NCBI RefSeq assembly: GCF_023684385.1
Contig: NZ_JAGSOJ010000001.1
Coordinates: forward strand, 372,001 to 436,000
DNA length: 64,000 bases
Source: Oceanirhabdus seepicola
GTDB lineage: Bacteria; Bacillota; Clostridia; Clostridiales; Clostridiaceae
Reading direction: 5' to 3'
Made by a program: the position numbers and the translations under genes. The notes beneath the pieces were generated by a model. The model worked only from the letters and a program-made list of their open reading frames with translations, was not told the origin of the DNA and made no database searches. Each line of letters opens with the position of its first letter. Position 1 is the stretch's first letter. Below are positions 2,846-60,270 of the stretch, in pieces.

Positions 2846-2924
2846 CATACTCACCTCAACAAAAATTATATCATAATTATCATATTTAAACTACATTGAG
2901 AATTGATAGAAAAGCATTAAAAGA

Positions 2925-3045
2925 AATGGATAATTGATAATGGATAATGAATAATGATGGATGTTTCTGCTCTATGAGCATAAACTGCATTTTATTATTT
3001 ATAAAACAATAAGCGATTACTTGACAGTGAAAAACTGTATCCACA
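2925..3045. repeat. Palindromic repeat family, left arm (element 1)
   Basis: Arm of the two-armed hairpin repeat described in the findings. It starts with the typical quasi-tandem tip (TAATGGATAATGAATAATG), then GATGGATGTTTCTGC with a short stem TGCTC/GAGCA, a diverged middle, and a third hairpin ACAGT/ACTGT. It is the most diverged arm. Its partner faces it at 3490-3622, with the gene 3068-3406 in between. Confidence 0.6.
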
Positions 3046-3067
3046 AAATAATGGTATCAATAGTTTT

Positions 3068-3406
3068 TTATCTAATTAAATTTAATTGTTTCCATATTTC
3101 TTCTTTAATTTTATCCAAAATCTCATTTGCTTTTTTCCTCTCTTCAAAATCTTCTCTCCATATATAAAAGTCTGTTAAACCACCATGAGTAGGAAAAAGC
3201 CCCTTATATATTTTCCCAATTTCACTAATAACTTCATTAAAATTATACTCTTTTAAATTAATACTTTTATCTAAGCTTTTTATTATATATATAATTTTCC
3301 TCATTACATAATCAATTTCATTTGTATCTTCTTTCCTTAAAACATTAGCTAACTCAGTAAATAAATTTAATATTTTCTTAGCGGTCTCTTTTTGCTTTTC
3401 ATTCAC
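3068..3406 (-). CDS. Small conserved-looking protein of unknown function
   Basis: A 112-residue soluble, mostly helical protein, rich in Lys and Glu, with no membrane segment or signal peptide. A distinctive stretch near residues 75-90 reads GGLTDFYIWREDFEERKKAN, resembling small proteins annotated only as domains of unknown function; I do not recognise a function. The start is GTG, 10 nt after AAGGAG; no ATG is better placed. The gene sits between two facing arms of the palindromic repeat family, close to both (about 22 bp from the left arm and 84 bp from the right), so it may have arrived as a unit with the repeat. No clear promoter was found. Confidence 0.75.
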   Translation of the reverse strand: MNEKQKETAKKILNLFTELANVLRKEDTNEIDYVMRKIIYIIKSLDKSINLKEYNFNEVISEIGKIYKGLFPTHGGLTDFYIWREDFEERKKANEILDKIKEEIWKQLNLIR

Positions 3407-3489
3407 AATAATTATTCTCCTTTTTATGAAAATGCTTTAACATTCTTTCATAAATAAATTTAACTTTACTCGCCCCCTTAGAGGAACCC

Positions 3490-3622
3490 TGTAAGCAAAC
3501 TACAATATTTTATCCAAGATAAAATGAGTAACACCCTCTTGTACTAAAGAACAATATAATCAAAGGTTCTGACCTAAGTCAGAACCTTCCTTCATTATCC
3601 ATTCTACATTTTCAATTTTACA
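3490..3622. repeat. Palindromic repeat family, right arm (element 1)
   Basis: Read on the minus strand from the tip: AATGTAGAATGGATAATG, then hairpin 1 GGTTCTGAC/GTCAGAACC, hairpin 2 TTGTTC/GTACAA, the conserved TTACTC, hairpin 3 ATTTTATC/GATAAAAT and the closing ATTGTA. The tip ends within seven bases of the hisC stop codon. It faces the arm at 2925-3045. Confidence 0.75.
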
Positions 3623-3628
3623 TTTGTT

Positions 3629-4714
3629 CTAAAGTATGTCTTTAAGTTCTTTTATAAATCTCTTATTCTGCTCCATTGTTCCAATGGAAACTCTTATCCA
3701 TTCTGGAGTACCTAGAAGATGTCCAGGTCTTATTATTACTCCTCTTTTTAAAAGATTATCAAACAACTGAACAGTATCAGTTTCAACATTTACAAATACG
3801 AAATTTGCATCACTAACAGCATATTCTAATCCCATGCTGTCAAATTCATTGTACAAATATTCCTTTCCTTCTTTGTTTTTATCATAAACCATTTGCAAGA
3901 ACTCATTGTCTTTTATAGCCAATGCTGCAGCCGTCTGAGCATATAAATTAACATCAAATGGTCCGATTACTCTATTAAAATATCCAACTAATTCTTCACT
4001 AGCAATACCATAACCTACTCTTAATGATGCAAGTCCATATGCTTTTGAAAAAGTTCTTAATGTTATCATATTTGGATAATCAGAAATATAATCAAGTGAA
4101 TCAGGGAAATTTTCACTAGTAACATACTCTATATAAGCTTCATCCATAACTATAAGTACGTGATCTGGTATTTTACTCAATACCTTATTAAATTCACTCT
4201 TATTAAAAGTTGTTCCTGTAGGATTATTAGGATTACAGAACCAAATTATCTTTGTTTTTTCGTTAATGCAGTTCACCATCTCTTCAATATCAAGCCCATT
4301 ATTCTTCATAGGAACCTTAATACATTTACCCCCCATAAGTTTTACAGAAGCTTCATATCTTGGGAAAGTTATCTCAGCCATTATAGATTCATCGCCTTCT
4401 TCGATAAATGTATTACAAATAACTTTGATAAGCGCATCGGAACCAGTACTACAAAACACTTGTTCATGTCTAACATTTAACTCTTCAGCAATATTGCTCT
4501 TTAACTGAAAATTTCCCGCATCTGGATACATGTAACTTTCATCAACTATTCCTCTTAAAGCATCTTTAGCTTTCTGTGAACACCCAAATGGATTCTCGTT
4601 AGACGCTAACTTTATGACATCATCTAACCCTAATTCTCTCTTTACCTCACTTATAGGTTTACCAGCCTTGTACACTCCAAGATTTAAAATTTCCTTCCTA
4701 ATTTTTAAAGCCAT
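3629..4714 (-). CDS. hisC: Histidinol-phosphate aminotransferase (class I/II PLP enzyme)
   Basis: PLP-dependent aminotransferase, HisC group: converts imidazole-acetol phosphate and glutamate to histidinol phosphate, and many stand-alone copies also act on aromatic keto acids. Visible are NPNNPTGT at residues 161-168, the cofactor-contacting DEAY at 191-194 and the Schiff-base lysine K224 in TFSKAYGLA. The length of 361 residues is normal. ATG with GGAGGGG upstream. It stands alone, with no other his gene nearby, between repeats and murB, so a role in tyrosine or phenylalanine synthesis, or an isolated his gene, are both possible. Family assignment is firm, substrate less so. Confidence 0.9.
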   Translation of the reverse strand: MALKIRKEILNLGVYKAGKPISEVKRELGLDDVIKLASNENPFGCSQKAKDALRGIVDESYMYPDAGNFQLKSNIAEELNVRHEQVFCSTGSDALIKVICNTFIEEGDESIMAEITFPRYEASVKLMGGKCIKVPMKNNGLDIEEMVNCINEKTKIIWFCNPNNPTGTTFNKSEFNKVLSKIPDHVLIVMDEAYIEYVTSENFPDSLDYISDYPNMITLRTFSKAYGLASLRVGYGIASEELVGYFNRVIGPFDVNLYAQTAAALAIKDNEFLQMVYDKNKEGKEYLYNEFDSMGLEYAVSDANFVFVNVETDTVQLFDNLLKRGVIIRPGHLLGTPEWIRVSIGTMEQNKRFIKELKDIL

Positions 4715-29345: not shown

Positions 29346-29454
29346 ACTGCTGCATGTAAATTTTATATTATAAAAATAAATACCACAATAACCATGAACA
29401 TTGAATTTTTCATGATGTGTGGACTGTTCTTTTAAATCACGCTACGCGTGGTTT

Positions 29455-29600
29455 AAAAGAGTTGAGAGTGGAAAGTGGAGAGTTGAGAACGATGGATGTT
29501 TCTGCTTACGTTGAAACTACATCTTATTGTTCTTTAGAACAAGGGGGTTTTACTCATTTTATCTTTAGATAAAATATTGTGTTTCTAATATTAAAACTCC
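29455..29600. repeat. Palindromic repeat family, left arm (element 2)
   Basis: Tip of GTTGAGAGTGGAAAGTGGAG type, then GATGGATGTTTCTGC with a weakened hairpin 1, ACTACATCTTATTG, hairpin 2 TTGTTC/GAACAA, TTTTACTC, hairpin 3 ATTTTATCT/AGATAAAAT and ATTGTG. Just before it (29430-29461) is another hairpin, TTTTAAATCACGC/GCGTGGTTTAAAA. The facing arm is at 30596-30722, with the membrane protein gene between. The stretch 29346-29429 shows nothing else. Confidence 0.75.
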
Positions 29601-29727
29601 ATTGTTTTTAGTAAGAATTTAACTTATTAAAATTATTAAATGTACTAACCTTAAGAAGTAACTTTATTTATTTGGCTACTTTTAAGTTTGTTGGTGAAAG
29701 TATGCATTCATTGTATATGTTAAATAT

Positions 29728-29756
29728 TTGAAATAATTTTCAAAATTTTGTATAAT
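29728..29756 (+). promoter_or_regulatory. Promoter of the orphan membrane protein gene
   Basis: TTGAAA, 17 nt, TATAAT, about 120 bp upstream of the start codon. The gene thus carries its own promoter inside the repeat-bounded segment. Confidence 0.6.
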
Positions 29757-29876
29757 CTAATAAATATGAGACAGTTAAAGCAAAACATATTTGTATTGTG
29801 AGGCAAAAAAGAATATTTTCAAATTTAGAATAGTAAGATATTGTAAATTAGTTTTAGACTATGGAGGGAATTATTT

Positions 29877-30323
29877 ATGAAAGTAAAATCGTGGATAAAA
29901 TATTTTGGTTATACTTGTCTAATTCTTATAATAGTGTTTTGGGGACAACACGTTTTTGAAATTATTAGAAAAAATAATCAAAGGTTTAATTTTTACACAT
30001 TTTATAATACTGCTATGTATATTAGTTTTTATGGAAGCATTGGGTTGTTTTTTGGTTTAGAGCATTTACTTTCTGAAATAAAGAAAAAAGGGAAGTGGAT
30101 GATCAATTGGCCCAAAATAATATTTATGGGAATACCATCATTATACTTTTCATTTGGTATTGCTATTTACTACATGGATACCCCAATTATTCGCGATGTT
30201 ATAGCATATCCCATTGTTGTATTGTTAAGAAATGGTTCAGTATTTATGCCAGTTTTTCAAATGACGCTTGGATACTCAATCATTACAAGTTTTTATAAGG
30301 ACAATAAAAATTTATCGATATAG
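29877..30323 (+). CDS. Orphan four-helix membrane protein, unknown function
   Basis: 148 residues with four predicted transmembrane helices (about 9-25, 42-64, 81-100 and 112-140). Basic loop SEIKKKGKWMINWPKI between helices two and three. No family recognised. ATG with GGAGGG at 8-nt spacing and a good promoter upstream. It is the only plus-strand gene in a long minus-strand region and lies between two facing arms of the palindromic repeat (29455-29600 and 30596-30722), suggesting it was captured or inserted with the repeat. Its own terminator is at 30552-30592, more than 200 bp downstream; the intervening 230 bp hold nothing recognisable. Confidence 0.7.
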   Translation: MKVKSWIKYFGYTCLILIIVFWGQHVFEIIRKNNQRFNFYTFYNTAMYISFYGSIGLFFGLEHLLSEIKKKGKWMINWPKIIFMGIPSLYFSFGIAIYYMDTPIIRDVIAYPIVVLLRNGSVFMPVFQMTLGYSIITSFYKDNKNLSI

Positions 30324-30551
30324 TTAATGCACAGTATTTCTTATGTTACGATATAGAAACTAATAATCACGTAATCAATTAAGACAAAAAAAGAGTTTAA
30401 TGCATAAAAAACCCAAACAACACTTTACTATAAATACCAATTAAAGAATCCACTGAAAGTTTCCTTTTAAAGCATCATATCATCAACACTATTTTAAAAC
30501 ATAGCCATTTATTTATTTTTGAAATAGTATATTAAATCGCTTATAAAAATC

Positions 30552-30592
30552 AAAAGGTTGGTGACAAATAATATTAGTCTCCAACCTTTATT
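30552..30592 (+). terminator. Rho-independent terminator
   Basis: AAAGGTTGG/CCAACCTTT stem with an imperfect inner part (AGACT/AGTCT-like), followed by ATTATACT. Serves the plus-strand gene 29877-30323. Confidence 0.65.
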
Positions 30593-30595
30593 ATA

Positions 30596-30722
30596 CTATA
30601 ATACAATGTTTCATTTATTATGAAACGAGTATCACCCTATTGTCCAATGAACAATATAATTAAAATTTCTCGAAGAGAAATGTCCATCATTCTCCATTCT
30701 ACATTTTCCATTATCCATTAAT
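30596..30722. repeat. Palindromic repeat family, right arm (element 2)
   Basis: Minus-strand reading from the tip: AATGGATAATGGAAAATGTA, GAATGATGGAC, hairpin 1 ATTTCTC/GAGAAAT, hairpin 2 TTGTTC/GGACAA, ATACTC, hairpin 3 GTTTCAT/ATGAAAC, ATTGTA. Stems 1 and 3 have different sequences from those of the partner arm but remain paired. The tip ends 14 bp from the nnr stop codon. Confidence 0.75.
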
Positions 30723-34804: not shown

Positions 34805-35002
34805 TTGTTTATTAACAGAAAAATTTATTCAAAAGATATTTCCTCTATTCACTTCGAAAGTAATGAAACAAAAGGAACTTTTGAAGCATATGATTCTCAA
34901 GGCAATCTTGTAAAATCTTGGAACACTATTGCTCACAACCTAGCACAGTTTGACTCTATGTCTAGAAATTTTTACAATGAACTAAACGACGAAAACCCCT
35001 AA
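34805..35002 (+). CDS. Small protein of unknown function, TTG start
   Basis: 65 residues, soluble, with a possible beta-hairpin EAYDSQGNLVKSW and an amphipathic C-terminal helix. No family recognised. There is no ATG; translation would start at TTG, seven bases after GAGGTGATT, an excellent binding site that supports this as a real gene. Divergent from ssb. The end of the gene is followed at once by the palindromic repeat 35003-35252. Confidence 0.55.
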   Translation: MFINRKIYSKDISSIHFESNETKGTFEAYDSQGNLVKSWNTIAHNLAQFDSMSRNFYNELNDENP

Positions 35003-35252
35003 AACAAATGTATAATTGATAATTGATAATGGATAATGATGGATGTTTCTGCTTACCCAGAAACTACATCTTATTTTTCTTTAAAACAAGAGGTTTTTAC
35101 TCATTTTATCTTTTAGATAAAATATTGTATTCAAAGTACAAGGTTTCATTAAAAATGAAACGAGTAAACCTATATTATCCAAGGAACAACAAAATTAAAA
35201 TTTCACGGAGTGAAATGTCCATCATTCTCCATTCTACATTATCCATTATCCA
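35003..35252. repeat. Palindromic repeat family, compact two-armed element (element 3)
   Basis: Best-preserved copy. Left arm: tip TTGATAATTGATAATGGATA, hairpin 1 TTTCTG/CAGAAA, hairpin 2, TTTTTACTC, hairpin 3 ATTTTATCT/AGATAAAAT, ATTGTA. Right arm (minus strand): tip AATGGATAATGGATAATGTA, hairpin 1 ATTTCAC/GTGAAAT, hairpin 2 TTGTTC/GGATAA, TTTACTC, hairpin 3 GTTTCATT/AATGAAAC, TTGTA. Arms meet in the middle with no gene between them. It fills the gap between two convergent genes exactly, from the stop codon of one to that of the other. Confidence 0.85.
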
Positions 35253-36071
35253 TTATGCTTTTTCGATTTTTTCATTTAAAAAAGCATTAAGCTCTCCTCC
35301 AATCAAAATCATCATCGAAGTTATGTAAATCCAAGTCATTAATATAATAACTGCTCCTAAACTTCCATACACTTTAGAATAATTCGCAAAATTATTAACA
35401 TAAAAAGAAAATCCTAAAGATGATATAAACCATCCTAAAGTTGTAAATAATGCACCTGGAATGACTTTTATAATCTTTAATTTTCTCGCTGGGAAAGTAC
35501 AATACATTCCCACGAAGACACTGAAAATTAAAAATAACGTAAATGCCATTCTATAGAAATCCCAAAAATATTTGAAATTTCCAAGTCCATCAAACCAATT
35601 AATAACAGTATTCCCTATAACTTCTCCAAAGATTATTAATGTAAAACTAAATATTATTATTACAGCTAATGCTATAGTATAAATAATTGAGATAAAAAAG
35701 ATATATATAATATTTCTATTTTCTTTAACGTTATAAGCAGTATTTAAACCATCCATAATTGCTCTTATTCCTCCTGAACCCGCATATAAAGCAAATAATA
35801 TACCAAATGATAACAAATTTTGATTACTATTTTGAAAAGTATCAATTATTACTGATTGTACTAGTTCATAAGCGCTTTCAGGCAAGTACTTACCAAATTC
35901 TTGAAGTATAGATTCCACGCTAATTTTACTATAACTAACAAGAGTTAAAAGAAAAATCATAAATGGGAAAAAAGATAACAATGAAAAATATGATAACACA
36001 GCTGCTACTTTTGAAATTTGATCATCTAATATTTTTTTTATTAGTGCTACTATTTTGCTTATAAAATTCAT
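35253..36071 (-). CDS. YihY/BrkB-family membrane protein
   Basis: 272-residue integral membrane protein of the YihY (former 'ribonuclease BN') family, about six helices. Family stretches: LSYFSLLSFFPFMIFLLTL, the glycine-rich YAGSGGIRAIMDGLNTAYNV and GALFTTLGWFISSLGFSFYVNNFANYSKVYGSLGAVI in part. Function unknown; the nuclease name is historical. ATG with GGAGGG. Its TAA lies at the very edge of the palindromic repeat, one base from the tip. Confidence 0.88.
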   Translation of the reverse strand: MNFISKIVALIKKILDDQISKVAAVLSYFSLLSFFPFMIFLLTLVSYSKISVESILQEFGKYLPESAYELVQSVIIDTFQNSNQNLLSFGILFALYAGSGGIRAIMDGLNTAYNVKENRNIIYIFFISIIYTIALAVIIIFSFTLIIFGEVIGNTVINWFDGLGNFKYFWDFYRMAFTLFLIFSVFVGMYCTFPARKLKIIKVIPGALFTTLGWFISSLGFSFYVNNFANYSKVYGSLGAVIILMTWIYITSMMILIGGELNAFLNEKIEKA

Positions 36072-55279: not shown

Positions 55280-55488
55280 AAGTTGAGAGTGGAAAGTTGA
55301 GAGTTGAGAACGATGGATGTTTCTGACTCAAGTCAGAAACTACATCTTATTGGTTATGAAACAATTAGGATTTTACTCCTTTCATTAATAATGAAACATT
55401 GTATTAGAAATTCACTATTTTGTCCTTATTCTATAGACCAACAAAATAAAACTATAGAGACTTTGATAATCCTCTATAGCTTTAATTA
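55280..55488. repeat. Palindromic repeat family, compact element (element 4)
   Basis: Left arm well preserved: tip AGTTGAGAGTGGAAAGTTGA, hairpin 1 TTTCTGACT/AGTCAGAAA, ACTACATCTTATTG, hairpin 2, TTTTACTC, hairpin 3 TTTCATT/AATGAAA, ATTGTA. The right arm is degenerate but still begins with a hairpin CTATAGAG/CTCTATAG (55451-55480) that probably terminates the chemoreceptor gene. It lies between the convergent rubrerythrin and chemoreceptor genes. Confidence 0.7.
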
Positions 55489-60063: not shown

Positions 60064-60270
60064 CTTAAATGATTGTGAATGATGGAGAGTTCTGACTTGG
60101 TTCAGAACTCTCCATTTTGTTGGTCTTTAAAACAAGATATTTCCACTCATTTCACCTTTTAGATATAATGTTGTAGTTTTTATACAATGTTTCTTGTACC
60201 TTAGCTAAATGAAAGGAGTAAAATTCTATTGTTGAATGAACAATAAGATTTTACTCCTAACAATAAATGC
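60064..60270. repeat. Palindromic repeat family, compact element (element 5)
   Basis: Left arm: tip GTGAATGATG, very long hairpin 1 TGGAGAGTTCTGA/TCAGAACTCTCCA (60082-60115) followed by TTTTG, hairpin 2, CCACTC, a weak hairpin 3 and GTTGTA. Right arm (minus strand): a 43-nt hairpin GGAGTAAAAT...ATTTTACTCC (60216-60258) with internal TATTGTTC/CAACAATA, then CTTTCAT and a late GAAACATTGTA. Both long stems probably act as terminators for the two convergent genes that flank it. Confidence 0.75.

Follow-up and report, generated by a model that had tools for sequence, protein, structure and literature searches.

MITEs and mobile insertion cassettes of the IS231 type are short, transposase-less elements with inverted ends that sometimes carry passenger genes. 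REP/RAYT systems and the IS200/IS605 family have subterminal hairpins and a replication-linked orientation, and an orientation bias of this kind is also found in single-strand transposons and endonuclease-less group II introns. To our knowledge, no catalytic activity has been assigned to the S23/IVP family of four-helix-bundle proteins (PF05635, 23S rRNA IVP). Intervening sequences of the S23p type sit inside 23S rRNA genes and are cut out of the transcript by RNase III. The 23S rRNA intervening sequence (IVS) of Coxiella burnetii has an S23/IVP gene between complementary ends, with tandem GACAGAT heptamers immediately before the S23p ORF; the relevant sections of the report call the function and origin of S23p and the IVS unclear, give mobility as one hypothesis and draw no link between the IVS and free-standing IVP genes (PMC4990558). 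According to an excerpt of PMC10053308, PF05635 resembles the DGR accessory protein Avd in sequence and structure. Tandem heptanucleotides, mostly between genes, are described in parts of two further reports, namely the dispersed TAACTGA repeats of Beggiatoaceae, read as regulatory sites (PMC4679880), and several families of Geobacter metallireducens, also read as regulatory, one class being depicted as looping onto the opposite strand (PMC2700814). A description of IVP genes flanked by heptamers outside rRNA was not found in open-licence PubMed Central literature, including excerpts of PMC4990558, PMC10053308, PMC4679880, PMC5524665 and PMC2700814.

The repeat described here was found in a window of 64,000 nucleotides, that is, positions 372,001 to 436,000 of contig NZ_JAGSOJ010000001.1 of Oceanirhabdus seepicola (GCF_023684385.1), whose genome of 5,335,032 bases is called G000 below; a second Oceanirhabdus genome, G001, matches Oceanirhabdus sp. 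W0125-5. The copy at 35007 to 35256 (given as 35003 to 35252 in an earlier note on this DNA) is an imperfect palindrome of approximately 250 bases, in which the inverted repeat 35007 to 35049 and 35212 to 35254 is 81% complementary. Its predicted fold was far better than that of shuffled sequences, both as DNA (z −7.37; 0 of 200 shuffles equally good) and as RNA of either strand (z −7.30 and −7.32; again 0 of 200). The copy consists of heptamer tips, hairpin 1, hairpin 2, a TTTACTC/GAGTAAA stem and, inside it, a closed cluster in which the left and right copies of hairpin 3 flank a central hairpin, and the same plan runs through an alignment of 30 copies of the family. The tip heptamers vary, being GATAATK in the window copy and GAGAGTK or GACAGTK elsewhere in the family. 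The parts of this copy and the other members of the family in the window are as follows.

2909 to 3021, plus strand: left-type arm of the second cargo-bearing copy (BLAST, left-arm model)
3068 to 3406, minus strand: cargo ORF, 112 aa (ORF reading, site comparison)
3457 to 3631, minus strand: facing arm of the second cargo-bearing copy (BLAST, left-arm model)
29454 to 29583, plus strand: left arm of a cargo-bearing copy (BLAST, left-arm model)
29877 to 30323, plus strand: cargo ORF, 148 aa, membrane-like by eye (ORF reading)
30589 to 30720, plus strand: right arm of the same cargo-bearing copy (BLAST, right-arm model)
35007 to 35044, plus strand: left tip, heptamer repeats of the GATAATK type, pairing with the right tip (direct reading)
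35045 to 35064, plus strand: hairpin 1, left arm (fold; covariation)
35069 to 35090, boundaries approximate, plus strand: hairpin 2, left arm, degenerate here (family alignment; without covariation support)
35096 to 35102, plus strand: TTTACTC, partner of GAGTAAA at 35162 to 35168 (fold; 89% paired, no covariation)
35103 to 35123, plus strand: hairpin 3, left arm (fold; covariation)
35125 to 35141, plus strand: central hairpin TTGTA ... TACAA, the cargo position in other copies (fold, cargo copies)
35143 to 35161, plus strand: hairpin 3, right arm (fold; covariation)
35162 to 35168, plus strand: GAGTAAA, partner of TTTACTC (fold)
35172 to 35193, boundaries approximate, plus strand: hairpin 2, right arm (family alignment; without covariation support)
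35200 to 35216, plus strand: hairpin 1, right arm (fold; covariation)
35217 to 35256, plus strand: right tip, inverted heptamer repeats (inverted-repeat and fold analysis)
55285 to 55424, plus strand: degenerate further copy (BLAST, left-arm model)
60069 to 60250, plus strand: degenerate further copy (BLAST, left-arm model)

BLAST of the copy against the window recovered the five loci of the earlier note (approximately 2909 to 3631, 29454 to 30720, 34992 to 35278, 55285 to 55424 and 60069 to 60250); two of the five are split by a gene, and the note had missed that arms enclose genes. Genome-wide, BLAST gave at least 62 matches (palindromic copies counted on both strands; best 40 of 261 candidates scored). 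Models of the left and right arms, each built from 29 copies, gave at least 145 matches, right arms partly included, and at least 141 matches, many of them left arms, respectively, in G000 (best 150 candidates scored for each). When merged, they marked at least 208 distinct arms, comprising 80 facing pairs and 48 unpaired arms, the partners of which may fall below the best 150 scored. The facing arms were separated by 11 nt or less in 61 pairs and by 81 to 2,780 nt in 19. G001 held at least 142 arm matches, all 142 scored candidates being positive. In a model search of 30 genomes (G000 and 29 relatives), both Oceanirhabdus genomes were positive and 0 of the 28 other relatives matched. No Rfam 15 family reached its gathering cut-off anywhere in the window, and no rRNA match was found there either.

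The Oceanirhabdus repeat, like a MITE, is short, multicopy, without a transposase and bounded by inverted ends; it differs from MITEs and IS231-type cassettes in its long multi-hairpin arms and heptamer tips, and may differ also in its parent gene, no transposase having been recognised by eye among its cargo, and in target duplication, none being obvious at one clean empty site. The window copy, which is intergenic, lies outside 23S rRNA and has no gene between its arms, shares with the 23S IVS the complementary ends with heptamer repeats. The IVS sit in 23S rRNA, whereas the Oceanirhabdus repeats are intergenic, mostly lack the IVP gene and number well over a hundred copies; the structured arms, too, belong to the Clostridiaceae elements and not to the 23S IVS.

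The link with S23/IVP comes from the genes themselves. PF05635 genes number one in G000 and two in G001, and all three adjoin arms of the repeat and read from right to left. Two of them, one in each genome, are enclosed by facing arms; the third, in G001, has two right-type arms upstream and no left arm within approximately 1.5 kb downstream. At the protein level, the Oceanirhabdus product is recognised by TIGR02436 and has a structural match in 2RLD. No other candidate core gene was seen in the family. We propose, with a probability of roughly 0.6, that the repeat is a non-autonomous, MITE-like derivative, devoid of the IVP gene, of a mobile element that carries an S23/IVP four-helix-bundle gene between the same arms.

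Reverse transcriptases were considered as well. The two Oceanirhabdus genomes hold five reverse transcriptase matches at four loci; four of the five lie at three loci with Rfam group II intron parts, and the fourth locus, L275, is without them. All six Rfam matches among L051, L080 and L274 to L277 were group II intron parts, located in L274, L276 and L277. A DGR at the G001 IVP gene that lies approximately 3 kb from a reverse transcriptase was rejected, because that ORF follows group II intron domains, and no DGR was recognised at these four loci. The reverse transcriptase-like ORF of L275 (G000 C2:403672) is 497 aa long; neither Rfam group II intron parts nor matches to the right-arm model were present in the 5 kb around it. 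At L274:5886-7875, beside the group II intron parts near a G001 IVP gene, an IstB/IstA-like transposon pair was seen by eye. In another genome (G395), the loci L287 and L288 show a weak IVP match that is multi-copy and identical between them; it scores 33 bits, less than the PF05635 cut-off, and an Rfam RT-9 RNA lies close by, so that a link between this IVP-like protein and a reverse transcriptase system is possible.

Heptamers followed by an IVP gene and inverted heptamers are the layout of many free-standing IVP genes across phyla. Searching the genome collection for the three IVP sequences turned up 37 loci, of which two are from Oceanirhabdus and one, L151, was omitted since its contig ends beside the gene. 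Period-7 repeats with at least 17 of 28 matches were present on both flanks in 25 of the remaining 34 loci, compared to at most 1 of 34 for each of the control periods 5, 6, 8, 9 and 11, and to 2 of 72 control genes in the same loci. A sample of 398 Bacillota genomes gave 30 further IVP loci, 29 after removal of one without a clean frame (the frame of L267 is doubtful); here, at 19 of 28 matches or more, heptamers lay on both flanks in 12 of 29 loci, where other periods gave no more than 2, and on one flank or more in 20. Nine of the 34 first-set loci and 17 of the 29 Bacillota loci thus do not have heptamers on both flanks. The two flanks of a locus matched each other as inverted repeats better than they matched the flanks of different loci (mean 22.1 compared to 13.7 in the first set, and 18.4 compared to 9.9 in Bacillota), and by rank 16 of the 34 loci and 15 of the 29 reached p below 0.05; direct, non-inverted matching of own flanks was also high (16.3 in the first set; 16.7 in Bacillota, where the inverted value was 18.4). 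The structured arms are not a general feature, since the GGATG motif with its hairpin occurred at chance level, in 2 of 64 loci (0 to 4 in shuffles and 2 in the outward control), one of the two being the flgK locus, and a general hairpin arm was not found beyond Clostridiaceae; the cross-phylum link therefore rests on the heptamers. The Geobacter and Beggiatoaceae heptanucleotide families may be tips of IVP-type elements. In Maribacter (L142 and L144), the IVP gene lies between thiamine-phosphate synthase-like and thiD-like genes, in what by eye resembles a thiamine gene cluster, and is an apparent insertion into it.

The layout recurs in the 23S IVS examined. None of the 34 first-set loci lay inside 23S rRNA, and two of the 30 Bacillota loci did (L262, and L272, which is the same place as L282); L279, L280 and L283 are further 23S rRNA copies in two genomes. 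At L262, L279 and L282, from three genomes, 23S rRNA directly bounds heptamers, IVP region and inverted heptamers, and these rRNA insertions seem to be elements of one type with the free-standing IVP loci. We extend the proposal tentatively, at somewhat short of even odds, to a new class of mobile element that spans phyla and combines an S23/IVP gene with inverted heptamer ends and no known transposase; 23S IVS would be its insertions into rRNA, and the Oceanirhabdus repeats its amplified, non-autonomous, gene-swapping derivatives, which would go into the template of the lagging strand in folded, single-stranded form. If free-standing IVP loci, 23S insertions and palindromes are one element, then the origin of rRNA IVS and the role of S23/IVP become testable, because the ends of the element are defined, a protein that may act in trans is at hand, and non-autonomous copies can be compared with empty sites. 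If true, the proposal would also enlarge the range of mobile elements by one for which no transposase is known, and would offer a natural example of a dispersed repeat that may swap the single genes enclosed by its arms.

Comparison of 0.95 Mb each of G000 and G001 revealed shared sites as well as sites filled in one genome only. At the only clean empty site found in Oceanirhabdus there is no clear target duplication, and the flank AAAACAAAT is also present in the empty allele; a second empty site retains short tip remnants. Sites e1, e2, e5 to e8 and s1 to s3 are too diverged or rearranged for exact junctions. Both ends of Oceanirhabdus copies, read inward by eye, are roughly TAAAA(C/G)NWAATG, and many copies come after the T-run of a terminator or a stop codon. 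The flgK–flgL junction was viewed at 30 loci of Clostridiaceae (50 of 58 genomes matched). The next ORF follows within 44 nt in 21 of the 30, including one (L321) with the flgL motif approximately 90 nt away, and two loci carry IVP inserts that start at or near the flgK stop codon, of 598 nt with strong heptamers (L299) and of 729 nt with weak heptamers of 12/21 (L308). L320 holds a 173-nt insert without the IVP gene, which has heptamers and a GGATG-hairpin arm resembling the Oceanirhabdus left arm, and some other loci hold shorter inverted inserts.

The orientation of the copies is linked to replication. With the origin and terminus of G001 set by GC skew and gene direction, 46 of 51 two-armed G001 copies were oriented consistently with their replichore; this set comprises copies retrieved because they resemble the one in the window, and the ORF calls around them are mechanical. 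Genes of at least 150 aa pointed the opposite way relative to the replichore in 187 of 224 cases (overlapping stretches included), and the 3′ end of a gene faced the right end in 65 of the 78 copies with both neighbours known. Nevertheless, orientation tracks replication even between symmetric genes, since all 15 copies whose neighbouring genes converge (11) or diverge (4) follow the replichore, two of them lying 1.6 kb apart. Of the five copies against the replichore, three are between genes running their way and two have one neighbour unknown. Given this orientation, the IVP-coding strand, which reads from right to left, is the lagging-strand template. The replication-linked orientation suggests that a single strand enters at the fork, and DNA and RNA fit alike.

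Considering these results, we propose the following scenario for the IVP-type element. The element would pass through a folded single strand, either of DNA or of RNA entering single-stranded DNA, and this strand would be fixed on the lagging-strand template, often directly downstream of a stop codon or next to a terminator. The IVP protein may bind the folded arms or the heptamers and may act in trans on copies lacking its gene, and the dispersed arms could then serve as homology for swapping whichever gene lies between them. The Oceanirhabdus repeat thus works like a single-strand mobile element, a statement about its behaviour and not about membership of a known transposon family.

The likeliest alternative, which we nevertheless regard as unlikely, is that the repeat is a MITE moved by an ordinary host enzyme, such as a Y1/HUH REP-associated transposase, and that IVP is a captured passenger. 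Y1_Tnp protein matches are indeed present (five in G000 and nine in G001), and single-strand transposition is brought to mind by the replication-linked orientation and by the absence of a clear target duplication. The cargo varies among copies, so IVP could be one passenger among many, and three IVP genes in two genomes are a small number. However, none of the four Y1 loci examined, out of the 14 matches, holds an arm according to the left-arm model, and the arms, of approximately 125 nt with inverted tips, are unlike those of REP/RAYT and IS200/IS605. Furthermore, all three Oceanirhabdus IVP genes adjoin arms, and IVP genes often retain heptamer tips in taxa in which arms were not found. Derivation from an IVP-carrying element is thus preferred to movement by such an enzyme.

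Facing arm pairs enclosing 300 to 3,500 nt numbered 14 in the available sequence; 11 of them contain one ORF of at least 75 aa, two contain two and one contains none. By eye, the cargo includes serine hydrolase-like, S41-peptidase-like and glyoxalase-like proteins and a methyltransferase with a helix–turn–helix, and inspection of the 14 translated copies by eye revealed no transposase. The 148-aa cargo ORF at 29877 to 30323 has no Pfam family above cut-off. Four orthologous cargo sites, picked for visible cargo in at least one species, were compared between G000 and G001, and in all four the cargo differed while the flanks were alignable on both sides. At 29454 to 30720 of the window both arms align, and homology stops approximately 10 and 60 nt inside the arms, where G001 has, instead of the 148-aa ORF of G000, an ORF of 286 aa that is unrelated to it. 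One arm fails to align between species at each of the remaining three sites. C1:356523 (G000 356523-359257) has an S41-like protein in place of an acetyltransferase-like protein and a 309-aa ORF; C6:74300 has no cargo as opposed to a 452-aa ORF; and C1:374956 (window 2909 to 3631) has the 112-aa ORF as opposed to none, the G001 site being approximately 400 nt shorter.

Such differences, with homology ending close to both inner arm ends at 29454 to 30720, are what might be left by an old, immobile repeat family that now serves mainly as scattered homology for RecA-type gene exchange between strains. Many copies are common to orthologous sites, and arm types have been switched in place, also in the window copy, whose ortholog in the other species joins, in its second arm, a hairpin 1 of the left type to a hairpin 3 of the right type. 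We nonetheless consider an immobile family improbable, more so than movement by a host transposase, because it leaves the origin, copy number, tip classes and filled and empty sites unexplained and because one arm is unalignable at three of the four cargo sites. In the mobile, IVP-derived reading, gene exchange would act on copies that had inserted. Within-element copying as the source of 'LL' copies was rejected, as the partner arm was nearer than the closest arm elsewhere in 0 of 13 (within mean 0.68) and as the second arm of the LL copy orthologous to the window copy is a hybrid.

Covariation was scored in 82 two-armed copies from both Oceanirhabdus genomes (83 extracted, one dropped for length) as double changes against the largest of 300 shuffles, which ignore the relatedness of copies. 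The helices were named by hand because stems whose loops vary escaped RNAalifold when the full alignment was folded; in the 26-pair RNAalifold structure, pairing fell from 97% to at most 56% when partners were slid. Hairpin 1 covaried on the left (39 double changes compared to a shuffle maximum of 11) and on the right (32 compared to 18), as did hairpin 3 on the right (18 compared to 11) and on the left (5 compared to 3) and the outer tips (61 compared to 40). Hairpin 2 (left, 2 compared to 10; right, 8 compared to 10), the central hairpin (2 compared to 10) and the inner TTTACTC/GAGTAAA stem (1 compared to 6) did not exceed the shuffles in the same 82 copies. In 73 of the 83 copies the two tips belonged to one heptamer class (Fisher p 8e-9).

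The structured multicopy family with compensatory stems reported in the earlier note is thus real, and the statistical check bears out covariation in two of the three hairpins that it had assigned to each arm, hairpins 1 and 3, but not in hairpin 2. Its view of TTTACTC and ATTGTA as conserved unpaired motifs is contradicted by the predicted fold, in which both are paired across the arms, though without covariation support. The family matched no known RNA family in Rfam, either in the window or at the arms in L051, L080 and L274 to L277, and a simple terminator was rejected, the hairpins being A+T-rich without a T-run by eye and several copies lying beside separate terminators.

The earlier note had also taken the covariation as a sign of selection on a folded RNA or DNA. 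Departures from pairing over the nine named helices comprised 130 G-U and 170 A-C, and therefore gave no clear RNA signature on the left-to-right strand. The balance goes both ways in single helices (centre, 32 G-U compared to 15 A-C; hairpin 2 right, 13 compared to 57), and in the RNAalifold pair set 90 G-U stood against 19 A-C, 65 of the 90 coming from one T-G pair. Nine two-armed orthologous sites were then compared between G000 and G001, a tenth with a truncated copy being left out; each hairpin was located in its own copy, which favours paired hairpins and led to a few picks on a neighbouring hairpin. Under this procedure, hairpin 1 left had eight two-sided changes with pairing kept, one one-sided and two broken, hairpin 1 right had four, none and three, respectively, and hairpin 3 was mostly intact. 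Many broken hairpin 3 pairs in a forced alignment of 14 orthologous sites were rejected as an artefact, four sites having no assigned orientation and loop lengths having shifted the partners. Given the few one-sided intermediates, template-switch correction or exchange between copies would fit as well as stepwise selection, so that the compensatory stems stand and their attribution to selection does not follow from them. A regulatory RNA or 3′ UTR/terminator family held in place by selection, although in keeping with the gene 3′ ends that face the right end and with the covariation of hairpins 1 and 3, including the hairpin 1 pairing kept in most changed pairs at the nine orthologous sites, is highly improbable in view of the missing Rfam match in the window, the lack of a clear G-U excess, the orientation between symmetric genes and the presence or absence of copies that differs between species.

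A single right arm was seen at 2293972 to 2294059 of G001. One half-copy of G001 (site s1), absent from G000, has its start close to the palindrome centre, as a truncated insertion would.
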